A DNA stretch of 64,000 nt from an uncultured Roseburia sp. Its GTDB lineage: Bacteria > Bacillota > Clostridia > Lachnospirales > Lachnospiraceae. Positions within the stretch are counted from its first letter, which is position 1, and each line of letters starts with the position of its first letter. A model generated the notes under the pieces. That model was not told where the DNA came from and ran no database searches. It saw nothing but the letters and a program-made list of their open reading frames with translations. The stretch is from NCBI GenBank assembly GCA_947647505.1, contig CANSKO010000016.1, positions 1 to 64,000 of the forward strand, given 5' to 3'. This document shows, piece by piece, positions 1-62,944 of this stretch. Both the position numbers and the translations under genes were made by a program.

Positions 1-101
1 GGCATAGAGGTATCCCGTGCGATTTCCTCTTTCCTGCCATACGGCATAGAGGTATCCCGTGCGATTTCTTCTTTATTGCCGTATGGCATAGAGGTATCCC
101 G
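1..101 (-). repeat. 42-bp tandem repeat inside a reading frame
   Basis: Two full 42-base units (1-42 and 43-84) are followed by a partial third (85-101). On the minus strand each encodes 14 residues in the same frame as the upstream start codon. Between the two full units the codon changes are CCA/CCG, TAC/TAT and GAA/GAG (all synonymous) plus AAT/AGG (Asn to Arg). The array continues off the left edge, so copy number is unknown. Confidence 0.85.
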
Positions 102-164
102 CGGGATTTCCCCGCGCAGCATCAGGATCAGTTCTTCATCCAAACAGCCCGCATACTCTGCCAT
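1..164 (-). CDS. Probable RNA polymerase sporulation sigma factor SigH, N-terminal part with an in-frame repeat insert (runs off the window)
   Basis: Only the first 54 codons are inside the window. The ATG at 164-162 has a GGAGG seven bases upstream. The product begins MAEYAGCLDEELILMLRG; a DEELI..LR start is typical of SigH in Clostridia, where sigH commonly lies just after rlmB, as here (19-base gap). From residue 18 the expected sigma region is replaced or pushed away by tandem copies of a 14-residue unit, RDTSMPYG(N/R)KEEIA. No stop occurs before the window edge. The SigH name is inference from the first 17 residues and gene order. It could instead be another small protein that carries the repeat. 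Confidence 0.5.
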   Translation of the reverse strand, partial: MAEYAGCLDEELILMLRGEIPRDTSMPYGNKEEIARDTSMPYGRKEEIARDTSM

Positions 165-183: not shown

Positions 184-924
184 CTAAATGCCTCTCTGGC
201 GCAAAATCTCATATGCAAGCACGCCCGTCGCCACCGACGCATTCAACGAATCAATATCGCCTTTCATCGGAATCGACGCGGTAAAATCACAGGTTTCCTT
301 TACCAGCTTTGAAACGCCTTCGCCCTCGCTTCCAATGACAAGGCCGATAGGCCCTTTCAAATCCAGATCATACATCATCGTTCCGTCCATATCCGCGCAG
401 ACAAACCAGATCCCCTCTTTTTTTAACGCCTGTATCGTCTGCGTCAGATTCGTCACTTTCGCTACCGGCGTATAATTGATGGCTCCGGCAGAAGCTTTTG
501 CAACAACGCCCGTCAGCCCCACGGCCCGGCGCTTTGGCAGGATAACGCCGTGCGCGCCGACCAGATTGGCCGTACGAATGATCGCGCCCAGATTGTGCGG
601 ATCTTCGATATTGTCAGCCAGAATCAAAAACGGCGCCTCGCCCTTATCGCGCGCTTTTTGCAGCATATCCTCCACCGACGCATAGGCGTATGCCGCAGCC
701 ACTGCGATGACGCCCTGATGCTTTTTCGTCTCAGAAAGCTGATCGAGCCGTTCTTTGGAAACAAACTGCAAAATCGTATCGCATTTTTTTGCTTCCCGCA
801 AAATCGTCTGAACCGGGCCGTCCTTACATCCCTCCTGCACATACAGCCGGTCGATCGTCTTTCCGGAGCGAAACGCTTCCAGTACCGGGTTTCTGCCTTC
901 TATTTTTAATGTTTCGTATTCCAT
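184..924 (-). CDS. rlmB: 23S rRNA (guanosine-2'-O-)-methyltransferase RlmB
   Basis: A 246-residue TrmH/SpoU-family SPOUT methyltransferase, expected to methylate the 2'-O of a conserved guanosine (G2251 in E. coli) in the peptidyl-transferase loop using SAM. Residues 1-78 form the substrate-binding N-terminal domain. The SPOUT core carries motif 1 NIEDPHNLGAIIR (105-117), motif 2 GSEGEG (198-203) and motif 3 IPMKGDIDSLNAS (218-230), which build the knot that binds SAM. Length is normal. It starts three bases after mrnC ends and is the fourth gene of the T-box-controlled cysE operon, a common order in Clostridia. It could also be annotated TrmH family. Confidence 0.93.
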   Translation of the reverse strand: MEYETLKIEGRNPVLEAFRSGKTIDRLYVQEGCKDGPVQTILREAKKCDTILQFVSKERLDQLSETKKHQGVIAVAAAYAYASVEDMLQKARDKGEAPFLILADNIEDPHNLGAIIRTANLVGAHGVILPKRRAVGLTGVVAKASAGAINYTPVAKVTNLTQTIQALKKEGIWFVCADMDGTMMYDLDLKGPIGLVIGSEGEGVSKLVKETCDFTASIPMKGDIDSLNASVATGVLAYEILRQRGI

Positions 925-4221: not shown

Positions 4222-5211
4222 TTATGCCAGAGCAGCCGTAATAATCGCCATCGAATATACTTCGGCCGCGTTGCATCCGCGTGACAGATCGTTTACCGGC
4301 GCATTCAATCCCAGAAGAATCGGTCCGTACGCTTCAAATCCGCCCAGACGCTGCGCAATTTTATATCCGATATTTCCCGCGCTGATATCCGGGAAGATGA
4401 ACGTATTGATATGCCCCGCAAATTCCGCTTCCGGACATTTCGTGCGCGCCACGCGCGGCGACACTGCCGCGTCAAACTGCAATTCACCTTCGACGGCAAG
4501 ATCCGGCGCTTTCTTCCTTGTCTTTTCGGCCGCATTGCGCATGCGGTCCACGTCTTCTCCGGCTCCCGAACCAAACGTAGAATAGCTTAAAAAGCCTACT
4601 TTGGGATCTACGCCAAAAATCTTCGCGCACTCTGACGCCTCGATCGCGATCTCAACCAGCTCGTCCTCCGTCGGACGAATATTGATGGCGCAGTCCGCCA
4701 TCGCCAGCACTTCGTTGTCACCCGTCGCCCTTGAGCGCACCAGAATAAACACAGAGCTTACAATGCTGCTGCCCGGCTTCGTCTTGATCAGCTGCAGCGC
4801 CGGACGAACCGTATCCGCCGTAGAATACGTCGCGCCGCCCAGAAGCGAATCCGCCATGCCCATCTTAATCAGCATCGTGCCAAAATAATTGGTCTGCAAC
4901 AAAACTTCTCTGGCTTTCTCTATCGTATAGCCTTTTCCCTTACGCAGCTCACAGAACATCTCCGCCATCTCGTCCATCCGGTCAAACTTCTTTGGATCAA
5001 TGATTTCAGCGCCGCGAATGTTGTATCCGCACTCCTCCGACGCCGCAAAAATCTCGTCTTCATCGCCCACCAGAATCGGGCTTAAAAAGTTGCTTGCCAG
5101 CAGACGGGAAGCCGCTTCCAGTATACGCGCATCCGTCCCTTCCGTAAATACAATCTTCTTCGGGTTCTTCTTGAGCATCCCGATCAATTCCCCAAATCCA
5201 AGTATTGCCAT
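4222..5211 (-). CDS. pta: Phosphate acetyltransferase
   Basis: A 329-residue short-form Pta interconverting acetyl-CoA and acetyl phosphate, the first half of the acetate/ATP branch. It begins MAILGFGELIGMLKKNPKKI and has IVFTEGTDARILEAA, TNYFGTMLIKMGMADSLLGG and the late segment KCPEAEFAGHINTFIFPDIS characteristic of the PTA/PTB fold. No N-terminal regulatory domains are present, as usual in Firmicutes. ackA, often next to pta in clostridia, is not adjacent: tRNAs follow and the methionine operon precedes. No clear terminator hairpin lies between the stop and the tRNA promoter. Confidence 0.95.
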   Translation of the reverse strand: MAILGFGELIGMLKKNPKKIVFTEGTDARILEAASRLLASNFLSPILVGDEDEIFAASEECGYNIRGAEIIDPKKFDRMDEMAEMFCELRKGKGYTIEKAREVLLQTNYFGTMLIKMGMADSLLGGATYSTADTVRPALQLIKTKPGSSIVSSVFILVRSRATGDNEVLAMADCAINIRPTEDELVEIAIEASECAKIFGVDPKVGFLSYSTFGSGAGEDVDRMRNAAEKTRKKAPDLAVEGELQFDAAVSPRVARTKCPEAEFAGHINTFIFPDISAGNIGYKIAQRLGGFEAYGPILLGLNAPVNDLSRGCNAAEVYSMAIITAALA

Positions 5212-45130: not shown

Positions 45131-46540
45131 TTATTCCGAACCCTTTCCCGTAATCACCACCTGCAGCGTCTTCGCCAGTATTTTGAAATCCAGTCCAATG
45201 CTCCACTGCGAAATATAATGCGTGTCCAAAAGGACCACCTCTTCAAAATCCCGGATGTCACTGCGGCCGCTGACCTGCCACATGCCCGTGATCCCCGGCT
45301 TAATGCCAAGCCTTGCTCTGTGATGAATCTGATACTGGTCAAATTCCTCAAGCGTCGGCGGCCTTGTGCCGACCAGGCTCATATCGCCCCGCAGCACATT
45401 AAAAAACTGCGGCAGCTCATCGATCGAATATTTGCGCATGACCTTTCCCACCGGAAAGACCCTCGGATCATCCGCCATTTTAAACATCAGTCCCGACATT
45501 TCATTTTGCCCCATCAGAGACGCTTTCTGCTCCTCCGCATTCACATTCATCGAACGAAATTTGTAGAGCTTGAATTTTCTTCCGTTCTTCCCCACGCGCA
45601 CCTGTGAAAAAAACACAGGACCGGGCGACTGGATTTTAATCATCGGCGCAAAAATAAAAAAAGCGATTCCACATGCAAAAAGGCCGATCACGCTTCCGAC
45701 GATGTCCATCAGGCGCTTGGCAAACAGCTGTCTGGGCGAAGCGATTTTCATGCTGGAGGTTAAGACCATGTAATTGCCGTATTTCTCCACTACCTTATTC
45801 GGCGCGAGCGCATTCATATGCACCAGATTAAAATGCACGATCAGCCCCATCTCCAAAAGCTCATTGGCAAGCGCCTGCGAGCTTTCCCTCGTATTGCCGT
45901 TGATAAACACTTCATCCACTACGTTCTTGCGGAGATATTCATAAAAATCATCCGCATTGGCGACGACCGGCACGCCGCAGATCTTCGCGCCCCGCAGCTT
46001 TCTGTCCACGACGACGACGCCGGATACGACGAAATCTTTATACGGCAGGTGCGCAAATTCCATCAGCGCCTCTCTCGCATATTCTTCCGTTGTCACCAGT
46101 ATCATAACCGAAAGGTTCTTTTCCTTTTTCATCCGGCTGCGAATCAGGTATTTCAGCAGAATTCTTCCGCCATACACAAACGCCATAGAAATGATCCAAT
46201 AGGAAAATATGACTTTTCGGGAATAAATCTCCGTCTGCTTCGTCGCAACCTCATAAGCCAAAACGCCGGCAAATATAATCGTGCAGAACGTAATGCACGA
46301 ATTGAGTTCCTGAAAATGCCCTCTGCGCAAAATCCCGGCATACGGTTCAAAAAAGAATACGACGCAGATATCAATCAATGCCATAGCGACCGCAAGCCTC
46401 TCATACGGCTCGTTAAAATACGGCAGATGCCATCCAAGCCGCATGACATAGGCAACCACAAGCGCAAGCTGCATGCAAAAAATATCGAGAATTGTAAAAT
46501 CCAAATGTTTTAACCAGCTTTTTCGTTCCCTTTTATACAA
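45131..46540 (-). CDS. Polyprenyl-phosphate sugar phosphotransferase initiating glycan synthesis
   Basis: A 469-residue protein of the WcaJ/CpsE family. Four or five N-terminal TM segments (about 10-130), a cytoplasmic nucleotide-binding-like domain (about 145-255), then the catalytic monotopic domain (about 275-469) with KRLMDIVGSVIGLFACG, LYKFRSMNVNAEE, SIDELPQFFNVLRGDMSLVG and TRPPTLEEF. It transfers a sugar-1-phosphate to undecaprenyl phosphate, the committed step. The first sugar is not readable. The zinc-ribbon gene lies 42 bases upstream. Confidence 0.93.
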   Translation of the reverse strand: MYKRERKSWLKHLDFTILDIFCMQLALVVAYVMRLGWHLPYFNEPYERLAVAMALIDICVVFFFEPYAGILRRGHFQELNSCITFCTIIFAGVLAYEVATKQTEIYSRKVIFSYWIISMAFVYGGRILLKYLIRSRMKKEKNLSVMILVTTEEYAREALMEFAHLPYKDFVVSGVVVVDRKLRGAKICGVPVVANADDFYEYLRKNVVDEVFINGNTRESSQALANELLEMGLIVHFNLVHMNALAPNKVVEKYGNYMVLTSSMKIASPRQLFAKRLMDIVGSVIGLFACGIAFFIFAPMIKIQSPGPVFFSQVRVGKNGRKFKLYKFRSMNVNAEEQKASLMGQNEMSGLMFKMADDPRVFPVGKVMRKYSIDELPQFFNVLRGDMSLVGTRPPTLEEFDQYQIHHRARLGIKPGITGMWQVSGRSDIRDFEEVVLLDTHYISQWSIGLDFKILAKTLQVVITGKGSE

Positions 46541-60126: not shown

Positions 60127-62944
60127 TCGATTCCAGAACCGCAGACCGGAGAGGAGCGGGCGCCGCCTGCACCGGCTCAGACTCCGTACGTTGGCCCGCC
60201 GCCGTTTTCGGTTCGCCCGGCGATGGCTCCGTTGGCGATGGCTCCGTCGGTGACGGTTCTGTCGGTGATGGCTCCGTTGGCGACGGCTCCGTCGGCGATG
60301 GCTCCTCCGGCCCTGGCGACGGCTCCGTCGGCGATGGCTCTTCCGGTCCTGGCGACGGTTCCGTCGGCGATGGCTCTTCCGGCCCTGGCGACGGCTCTGT
60401 CGGCGATGGCTCTTCCGGTCCTGGCGACGGCTCTGTCGGTGACGGCTCTTCCGTTTCGTAGATCGGTTCTGTAATCACAAGCTCCACTTCATTCGAAAAC
60501 TTGCTGAGGGAATCATCCGCATAGACGGCCCGCACTTTGAGGCAATACGTTACGCCAACGACAAAGTCCACCATATTGCCCGCTGCGTCTTTATATTTTG
60601 TCATGCTGTAAGCATTCGTTCCAATGCCGCCTACCCTGACGTATTCCGCGTCAATATTGCGCTTGCAGAATACGCGATACCGAACTGCATTCGGCCACTG
60701 CATCCAGTTCAGCACGACTTTATTGTCTTTTATGCCCGCCGTAAGCTGAATCAGCGCCTGTTTTTCCGTAGGCTCGGAAAATTCACCATAATAATTTACG
60801 CCGTCTGCCGTAATATACGCCCGGACTTTGTAATAATAAACCGTTCCGGAAAGCTTACCGGCGTCGCTGTCCGTATAGGAACCCTTGCTTCCGGCGGCTG
60901 CCCCGACCAGCTCATACGCGCCGTCTTTCGCCGTCGAACGATAGATTTCATATCCATCCACATCCGTCATTTTTTTCCAGGCGATCTTGATTCGATTGCC
61001 GGAAACTTCACAGTTGCTCTCGTTGATCTCCACCTGTCCGGTCGTTACTCTTACCGATACCGGATCCGACATCGTTCCATAAATCTTCACCCGCTTATCC
61101 GGATTATCCGACTGCGGCGCTTCTTTGTACATGCGCATCTGATACTGATATACGCCGGCCCGCGTAAGGTTTTTATCTGTATAAGATACCGTCGTATCCG
61201 ATGTAACAGTCCCAATCAGCTGACCGCCACGATAAATTTCATATCCATCCGCCGTATTGATTCGATCCCAGCTTAGTTTAAGTGACGTCGTCGATTCTGA
61301 TTCTGTCTTTGTAATCACGGCTTTTTTCAGCTTTGACGCCATTTTTGTGCATTTTGATTTTTTAAAGTTTTTGATTTTATTCCATTTTTTAAGGTTGGTA
61401 TACCGCAACAGAGGATCGGTAAACGTGAACGACTCCTTTGAGTCAATATACTGGAATACGTGCCAGACCAGACGCTTTGCGCGGGCATTGTTGCACAGTC
61501 CCCAATAGTAGCCCAGATTCGTCTCGGAAGGATGATCGAATTCCCTGCCGTAAATAAAGGCTTCAATCATCGAATTGCCTTCGCTCATATAATAGGCATA
61601 GGCATAGGCGGCCGCCTGCACCGCTTCTCCCCTGCTGGAATTAAACGACTGCTCCGACAACATAATCTTGCAGTTCTTGCCGAATTTCTTTTTGACGTAT
61701 TTCGTCAGCACGTCCAGATTTTTGAAATTCACAATCTTTGCGTTGACGGAGTTCGTCGCCGTCGAATCATCCCAGAAAACAGGATCGGACATGCCCTGCG
61801 GATACGCATGATAGGCAATCTGAAAATCAATGTCCCCTTTCGCCTTCAGGCTGGCGTAAAACTGGTCCAGCGTGGCTTTGGACGTAAAATACCGCTTTCC
61901 GGAGCCATCCGCGTCATTGTTCCAGTTGTGATCCAGGCTGATGTACACTTTGGCGTTTTTATTGACGCTTTTTACTGCATTGTAGCAGATATGAAACGCT
62001 CTCGCGTAGTTATCCATATACGTGGCAAGCTTTTTATTGCCGCCGTAATTCCATATGTACGGGCTGTTGACCTCATTGCCCAGAATCCAGCCGGATACAA
62101 GCCGCTCCGCCGTGCCGTAGCGCTTTCCAAGAAAATCCATAATCGCCTCAAACGTCAGACGGCCCGCGTTGCTTGACGTCTTAATCGACGAATACAGCGT
62201 ATAGTTGTCTCCGCCGAACTGCATGGCGGACGTGCCTGTCGAAGCGCCGTCTTTGGGCAGTAAAAGGATGATCGTCACCCGCGCGCCGGCCGCATTGTAG
62301 GCCTGCACCTGCTCATCGTGCTTTTTCAGCTGATCCGCATCAATCTGATACGTTTTGTTTTTGTAGGTAAACGACGTTTGATTCGTCGCTTTCTGATTCA
62401 ACAGGGAGTTTAACGTCCAGTTGATTACGACATGCTGCGCGCCAAGCGAGAGCGAGTCGTCCAGATCCTCCACCTGAAGCCCCTTTTTCGACGTGACAGC
62501 CGGGCCGCTTCCCGTATATGTGGCGAGCGCCTCCGGATTCGTAAGATAGCTGGCGTCGCCAAGTATCTGATATTTGGAGCCTTTTTTATATGCGACCGCA
62601 AATTTCTGATACAGCATGGAGCTGTTAAAGCCCGCTTTCAGCGTCACCGTTCCTTTTTTGGCCTTTACGGACGCAATGGGCTTCGCGCTCAATTTTTTTG
62701 TTTCGGATTTATTGGCGTTTAAAGCCAGAAGATACAGTTTTGAGCCCATGGCCGCCGTCTTTTTTTTCACTTTGGCCTTCACTGTGACTTTGCTGCCGCC
62801 GCTGGTTAATTTACAGGTTTTGATTTTTACATTTGCATCCGCCGCCTGCGTCTGCACCGGATTTGTTACGGCAAGCAGCCCCGTCAGCAACAGAGCAGCC
62901 GCTATGACGTATAGGATTCGTGTTCTTTTCTTCTTCTGCATCAT
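59960..62944 (-). CDS. Exported DUF5722-type glycoside-hydrolase-like protein with Fn3 repeats and Pro-rich linker
   Basis: A 994-residue secreted protein: signal peptide (about 1-33), a beta-rich domain (about 35-125), a barrel-type catalytic domain (about 150-530), three Fn3 repeats (about 545-830), then the TEPSP linker and a 75-residue tail. In the barrel, GWILGNEVNSPYIWNYGG and KIMLSEQSFNSSRGEAVQAA place two Glu residues where clan GH-A hydrolases have acid/base (NE) and nucleophile (E), plus QIAYHAYPQGMSD. DUF5722 is not assigned an activity. The tail is polar and lacks an LPXTG or TM anchor in this frame. Confidence 0.85.
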   Translation of the reverse strand: MMQKKKRTRILYVIAAALLLTGLLAVTNPVQTQAADANVKIKTCKLTSGGSKVTVKAKVKKKTAAMGSKLYLLALNANKSETKKLSAKPIASVKAKKGTVTLKAGFNSSMLYQKFAVAYKKGSKYQILGDASYLTNPEALATYTGSGPAVTSKKGLQVEDLDDSLSLGAQHVVINWTLNSLLNQKATNQTSFTYKNKTYQIDADQLKKHDEQVQAYNAAGARVTIILLLPKDGASTGTSAMQFGGDNYTLYSSIKTSSNAGRLTFEAIMDFLGKRYGTAERLVSGWILGNEVNSPYIWNYGGNKKLATYMDNYARAFHICYNAVKSVNKNAKVYISLDHNWNNDADGSGKRYFTSKATLDQFYASLKAKGDIDFQIAYHAYPQGMSDPVFWDDSTATNSVNAKIVNFKNLDVLTKYVKKKFGKNCKIMLSEQSFNSSRGEAVQAAAYAYAYYMSEGNSMIEAFIYGREFDHPSETNLGYYWGLCNNARAKRLVWHVFQYIDSKESFTFTDPLLRYTNLKKWNKIKNFKKSKCTKMASKLKKAVITKTESESTTSLKLSWDRINTADGYEIYRGGQLIGTVTSDTTVSYTDKNLTRAGVYQYQMRMYKEAPQSDNPDKRVKIYGTMSDPVSVRVTTGQVEINESNCEVSGNRIKIAWKKMTDVDGYEIYRSTAKDGAYELVGAAAGSKGSYTDSDAGKLSGTVYYYKVRAYITADGVNYYGEFSEPTEKQALIQLTAGIKDNKVVLNWMQWPNAVRYRVFCKRNIDAEYVRVGGIGTNAYSMTKYKDAAGNMVDFVVGVTYCLKVRAVYADDSLSKFSNEVELVITEPIYETEEPSPTEPSPGPEEPSPTEPSPGPEEPSPTEPSPGPEEPSPTEPSPGPEEPSPTEPSPTEPSPTEPSPTEPSPTEPSPGEPKTAAGQRTESEPVQAAPAPLRSAVLESNAYKKQTVGKAGETVREKKYLLYLPGSPVYDWDYGEYQPYTCRRAAVASDGRKNG
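60210..60456 (-). repeat. Pro/Ser/Thr/Glu tandem repeats in the DUF5722 gene
   Basis: About four copies of a 36-base unit (EPSPTEPSPGPE) followed by about five 15-base units (TEPSP). The units vary mostly at third codon positions. They form a wall-spanning linker near the C-terminus. Slippage in such arrays often changes length between strains. Confidence 0.85.

Follow-up and report, generated by a model that had tools for sequence, protein, structure and literature searches.

A selfish palindromic element resembling the RPE of rickettsial genes has probably inserted in frame into sigH of an uncultured Roseburia sp., where it would have been tolerated and later expanded in tandem. The array lies at the beginning of the window, the whole stretch of 64,000 nucleotides that was analysed. 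The element is dispersed among related genomes, it sits in frame near the N-terminus of SigH, the corresponding site is empty in most relatives, and the sigma domains that follow the array are intact.

A 42-bp direct repeat was detected by TRF at window positions 1-111 (2.6 copies, 88% matches). The minus-strand frame starting from the ATG at 164-162 reads MAEYAGCLDEELILMLRGEIP-RDTSMPYGNKEEIA-RDTSMPYGRKEEIA-RDTSM and stays open up to the window edge, so the unit corresponds to 14 residues and the array is in frame, which confirmed the in-frame 42-bp repeat claimed in the preliminary description. Copies were scored with model R1, which was built from 20 copies after antisense matches, a different repeat in L069 (about 4992-5109) and weak copies were excluded. 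The features of this region are as follows.

1..164, minus strand: 5' part of sigH, start codon at 164-162, truncated by the end of contig C16; the rest lies on contig C36 (L003 1-609).
111..164, minus strand: first 18 SigH codons preceding the insert (MAEYAGCLDEELILMLRG), from the alignment of relatives; GE is common to the first unit.
69..110, minus strand: repeat unit U1 (EIPRDTSMPYGNKE), a full element match to model R1 at 63-114 with 60.6 bits.
27..68, minus strand: repeat unit U2 (EIARDTSMPYGRKE), in which the loop GTAT replaces ATAC; matched by model R1 at 21-61 with 43.9 bits.
1..26, minus strand: incomplete next unit; the contig ends at the base where units diverge (ATAC/GTAT).
184..924, minus strand: putative RlmB-type methyltransferase gene directly upstream of sigH.

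Across the 64-kb window, model R1 matched the sigH array and one further stretch at 46118-46168; this match is weak (16.6 bits, E 0.011) and may be a decayed copy or chance.

The two full units were compared codon by codon. In the register starting at RDTSM, three of four codon differences were synonymous, as the preliminary description had stated. When whole 42-bp units were taken from GAAATC, U1 and U2 differed by three synonymous and two non-synonymous codons, U1 and U3 by one and two, and U2 and U3 by two and none, respectively. Four or five differing codons, the basis of the argument from synonymous changes, are too few to demonstrate selection on the peptide. The loop reads ATAC in two units of this genome and GTAT in one; since the two are reverse complements of each other and both are synonymous, a single inversion of the hairpin tip could account for two of the differences.

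The first base of the window is also the first base of contig C16, in a 40-contig assembly of 2.59 Mb with 86.8% completeness. A search of the same genome found a single other place, C36:1-68, which is identical to window 1-68 reversed and yields a 68-bp overlap. Contig C36 (8887 bp, L003) keeps the frame for 202 codons, in the order of one and a half units, one more unit, IMDYILDKYKPLVRRRANALYLIGGDTDDLIQEGMIGLF and then the remaining sigma factor. Sigma70_r2 (PF04542) matched this frame with 46.5 bits against a Pfam cut-off of 24, and Sigma70_r4_2 (PF08281) with 35.8 bits against 25.7. Extension past the contig end, the check suggested earlier, thus led in frame to sigma regions 2 and 4; the frame did not stop within the array, and the downstream protein is a sigma factor. 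The idea of a translated repeat within SigH is thereby supported. The best NCBIfam families were SigH models, among which NF006148 scored 184.9 bits, under its curated cut-off of 208. The insert-free SigH orthologue of G010 likewise fell under this cut-off with 177.7 bits, so the insert is not the cause of the low score. An RlmB-type ORF was present in the SigH loci of all 13 relatives looked at; in the four with an informative upstream frame, it lies directly upstream of sigH. This order is consistent with C16 and C36 being adjacent.

Both the junction of the two contigs and the copy number rest on an overlap lying inside the repeat. Taken at face value, the 68-bp overlap gives three units. 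C16 breaks off just where the units go on with either ATAC or GTAT, and C36 sets in just after the point where they have either AAAGAA or AAAGAG; because both contigs end exactly at such branch points, a loop in the assembly graph is suggested. For such a loop the 68-mer must occur two or more times, which requires a minimum of two GTAT units and of four units in total. Judged from these contig ends, the clone, or some of the population, would have a sigH array of no fewer than three units and probably four or more. That both contigs end within the array of a 40-contig assembly could also be taken as the mark of an assembly artefact. We consider this very improbable, since three other genomes carry an insert at this position and the units differ at defined bases; the unit is not unique to one assembly, the outcome that the preliminary description had linked to a sequencing artefact.

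A SigH-type match over most of the query was found in 14 of 15 genomes of the genus and was absent from the remaining one, G013 (85% complete). SigH lacks the insert in 10 of the 14 species and reads straight through the site, as in LRNNESGIMDYI and LRNNESGIMDYILDKYK. Besides the genome analysed here, extra residues occupy the site in three species (16 in G003, 14 in G014 and 7 in G011). The insert of G003 is near the consensus of model R1 (63.9 bits) and that of G014 is diverged (43.5 bits), its left half belonging to another subtype, while the remnant in G011 gave no match to the model. The insert presumably falls between predicted helices one and two of the sigma-2 domain. In a tree of RlmB and SigH combined, the four species with an insert form one side of a branch, corresponding to one change of state, with branch support of 56/75 and recovery in 64% of 200 bootstraps; this grouping is not recovered in the tree of SigH alone. 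The version of the element differs among the three relatives, so the sigH site may have seen repeated insertion or a conversion. A query of the insert-bearing SigH matched 1 of 299 genomes of the family, its own genome only, in a search with a short query and about one genome per genus.

The preliminary description had suggested that the repeat could act as a length switch. In a selected form of this idea, the copy number of the 14-residue unit would tune the activity or stability of SigH and be maintained by selection. In its favour, the array keeps the frame, its identical units would be prone to slippage, and a repeat loop is implied by the contig ends. The genome encodes Spo0A (347.6 bits) and SpoIVA (640.7 bits), so the pathway served by SigH probably exists and SigH probably has work to do. 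However, the insert is absent in 10 of 14 species, and the other three bear one near-consensus copy, one diverged copy and one remnant; the element also occurs in many unrelated genes and between genes, so that no SigH-specific reason is needed for its presence. Our analysis brought no supporting evidence for a switch, and we regard it as improbable.

The dispersal of the element was determined with sequence patterns and with model R1. A 20-base core pattern, allowing up to two mismatches, matched in 13 of the 15 genus genomes; the control, the same pattern read backwards, gave some single matches too. Copies spaced 42 or 43 bp apart were also found outside sigH, including one array of six copies. 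In a collection covering 84,980 species, an exact 22-base pattern occurred in six stretches, whose records are titled Lachnospiraceae in five cases and Eubacterium sp. in one. Of the 15 genus genomes, model R1 matched 14 at the E<=0.1 threshold and 12 at E<=0.001; with at most 150 candidates scored per genome, the matches at E<=0.1 numbered 51 in G011, 37 in G003 and 20 in G002. In the family, at least 19 of 299 genomes matched at E<=1e-4, a lower bound because few candidates were scored per genome, and in a sample of the class 2 of 291 matched, both from the same family (Lachnospiraceae). The genome analysed here contains, among the matches listed, the sigH array and a copy before apt (C29:30512-30568). 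The search of the genome and its relatives that had been suggested found both this copy and many in relatives, and the alternative idea of a mobile coding repeat that landed in sigH became the better supported of the two: in relatives the element is dispersed, in frame in genes as well as between genes. A local tandem duplication born in sigH, with no mobile element, is hardly credible; slippage does create tandem arrays, but outside sigH of relatives the unit stands alone or in arrays of period 42, 43 and 45.

Arrays of the element were frequently observed at contig ends in related assemblies (L147, L154, L159, L161, L135 and L037), which means that draft genomes probably understate the number of copies.

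Two candidates for the spread of the element were rejected. The exact pattern occurred in the viral contigs L074 and L075, both of which show the same ORF starting MPYGKKEELPDAVKALPEHGQE, probably a ChaB-type N-terminus; these matches are probably unrelated, and a SigH search of the viral contigs found no relative. A RAYT as mobiliser was rejected since the presence of PF01797 (Y1 transposase) does not track the copy number of the element. PF01797 was found in 7 of the 15 genus genomes, which are incomplete, and was absent from G000, G006 and G011, likewise incomplete, which hold 6, 18 and 51 element matches. No mobilising enzyme was found, PF01797 being absent from the genome analysed here and from G011, the genome with the most copies.

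Among the matches listed, 62 clusters of the element were obtained, of which 58 were newly taken and four were already in the set. In total, the matches listed comprised 92 copies at 70 sites in 68 loci, where the 70 sites include orthologues and both contig ends of the sigH array. Intragenic copies were located within or between Pfam domains. The element was found in CbiD (L069, Lapin-023 bin84; several units of period 45), in the DUF6070 lipoprotein-like proteins L107 and L117, in the MecA_N-like protein L108 and in the DUF2201 protein L141. In L134 and its orthologue L145, from two species, it occupies 1201-1252 and separates FEPFYRF from GNGLGLYIV in a histidine kinase, inside the HATPase_c domain. 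Two antisense copies were present in a BlaR1-like gene (L124 2-1585), one in the Peptidase_M56 and one in the Transpeptidase domain, and both are open. The contig with the CbiD copies also carries a different coding repeat, with CAGEQKEE units of 66 bp (L069 4992-5109), and in L150 1201-1279, an orthologue of L112, a longer stretch replaces the second hairpin of the element with the frame kept.

All 17 same-strand copies in 12 ORFs, which were picked by hand and not blind, are read in one frame, (M/V)PxGxKEE. Sites in another phase (L115, L116, L119, L131, L143, L152 and L157) seem to be located upstream of the actual start codon; for L115, L116 and L143 this was checked through the family or the start site. 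An ATG of an ORF of at least 80 codons was found at -2 to +8 of the 3' end of the element in 15 of 70 sites, compared with 3.98 expected at random (sd 1.93, maximum 11 in 1000 draws); the 15 include the sigH site itself and the orthologues L126 and L130. With looser starts (ATG, GTG or TTG within 22 bases), the enrichment was weaker, at 27 of 70 sites versus 15.9. The genes downstream of the element include dnaX, hisG, argJ, dapB and folD in relatives and apt in the genome analysed here. Going by these positions, intergenic copies often appear to supply a following ATG with a Shine-Dalgarno site through their tail. A TwoAYGGAY RNA (L036 3419-3538, 99.5 bits) was detected downstream of the intergenic array of six copies, at a distance of about 60 bases.

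The same arrangement could give sigH two starts. The last unit ends with AAAGAGGAAATC directly before an ATG within sigH (IMDYI), so the tail would act as a Shine-Dalgarno site and a second SigH would be made without the N-terminus and the repeats. The site is at L003 85-93 and following, with 172 codons to the stop, and the 15 of 70 element sites with an ATG at this distance speak for such a use. On the other hand, G003, G011 and G014 read CAG or CAA at the position of the ATG, which is therefore not conserved with the insert; the enrichment weakens under looser start rules; and in the predicted fold the tail pairs with the CCTC arm, which could hide it. A second start is unlikely on this balance, if somewhat less so than a length switch. 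A broader reading combines the two: in part of the Lachnospiraceae, a mobile element readable as protein would also supply a hairpin and a site for ribosome binding, seeding new translation starts and protein loops, and sigH of this species, prone to slippage and with a second internal start, would yield two SigH forms in a ratio set by the copy number. We consider this combination as doubtful as the switch by itself. The tolerated in-frame insertion remains the preferred explanation.

The element is about 45 bp long and imperfectly palindromic, with two hairpins followed by a purine-rich 3' tail such as AAAGAGGAAA; the consensus of 20 and of 16 copies is close to GGAAACACCCTCCGGGTATCCCTCTATGCCATACGGCANNAAAGAGGAAA. 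Hairpin 1 (CCC...GGG) had 29 two-sided cells, compared with 12.0 in shuffles (sd 2.7; 0 of 500 as high), with only 61.6% of cells pairing. For hairpin 2, the complement of the first four bases was found close by in 79 of 90 rows. In the 20 rows with an arm other than TGCC, 13 had their own complement and 5 kept GGCA, by direct count with no shuffled control; the changed arms were TGCG/CGCA, TGTG/CACA, TGTC/GACA and one doubtful TTCC. An RNA-structure reading of hairpin 2 from fitted alignments was rejected, as covariation there was no higher than in shuffles; the arm changes are missed in the fitted alignment partly because variants with longer loops fall in gap columns. Single units folded little better than shuffles (z -1.5 and -1.3), and among four arrays three folded far better than shuffles (z -5.1, -5.3 and -7.2) and one did not (-1.7). 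In six loci searched against Rfam at E<=1, no family covered the element.

Rickettsia and Wolbachia are the main bacteria known to carry protein-coding palindromic repeats, and the BOX elements of pneumococcus are modular hairpin repeats near genes, which differ from the Lachnospiraceae element in size and sequence. RPE are described as palindromic repeats of 105-146 bp fused in frame in rickettsial genes, and a guanylate kinase with an in-frame RPE stayed active (PMC2229807). Two papers describe RPE and the palindromic elements of Wolbachia as palindromic and dispersed, located between genes and in frame in unrelated conserved genes, with terminal parts that pair, as in the Lachnospiraceae element (PMC2229807, PMC10969869). 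Compared with RPE as described there, the Lachnospiraceae element is shorter (about 45 bp, in units of 42-45 bp), forms head-to-tail arrays and often provides a Shine-Dalgarno sequence before genes. It shares with RPE the dispersed copies per genome, a palindromic secondary structure (covariation in hairpin 1, arms of hairpin 2) and in-frame insertion with empty orthologues, the latter coming from sigH alone (4 with, 10 without). The element works like an RPE, but because its size falls outside 105-146 bp and the comparison covered described features of RPE, it was not filed as one.

REP families are also short palindromes in clusters, and the GTAG and CGTC REPs include intragenic units (PMC3733652); unlike REP, the element has no GTAG or CGTC tag at either end of its consensus and no link to a Y1 transposase. 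PARCEL are likewise tandem coding repeats with dyad symmetry that spread between genomes, but PARCEL units have 25 amphipathic residues in ORFs without assigned function, whereas the Lachnospiraceae element encodes 14-15 hydrophilic residues in conserved genes (PMC2996958). A literature search of open-licence papers, for the peptide words and for such repeats in Lachnospiraceae, found no description of the element.

From its distribution we infer that the element moves or has moved, and the following course of events may explain the sigH array. One copy would have entered sigH in an ancestor of the four genus species, between LRGE and IMDYI near the N-terminus, in the frame used by all examined same-strand intragenic copies (PSGxxSMPYGxKEE). 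With a length divisible by three and no stop in this frame, the insert would have left the gene open. In the species analysed here, head-to-tail amplification would have followed, for which replication slippage or unequal recombination is the simplest route, giving no fewer than three and probably four or more units; in the other species with an insert, the unit would have remained single or shrunk. The effect on SigH was most likely tolerated and close to neutral. Among the sequences compared, neither transposition nor excision of the element was seen.

As a site for such an insertion, the gene of a core sporulation regulator is unusually conserved. A family of this kind that occurs many times per genome in free-living gut Bacillota, with close species that have or lack each insertion, would open to testing the spread of such elements, the reason for their single reading frame and their effect on the proteins entered. 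The use of the element as a ribosome-binding site before genes bears on the spread of translation signals.

Other repeats and structures were noted on the two contigs. Another short-period tandem array, probably coding and not of this element family, lies at window 60209-60453 (TRF periods 15, 21, 36 and 45). Downstream of sigH on C36, L003 1912-3906 encodes a secreted-looking protein with many leucine-rich repeats of 23 residues (69 bp) of the LTSVTIPESVTSI type. On the minus strand of the same contig, a TPP riboswitch (L003 1407-1503; 63.5 bits, above the gathering threshold) was found upstream of the ORF of a small membrane protein at 823-1377.
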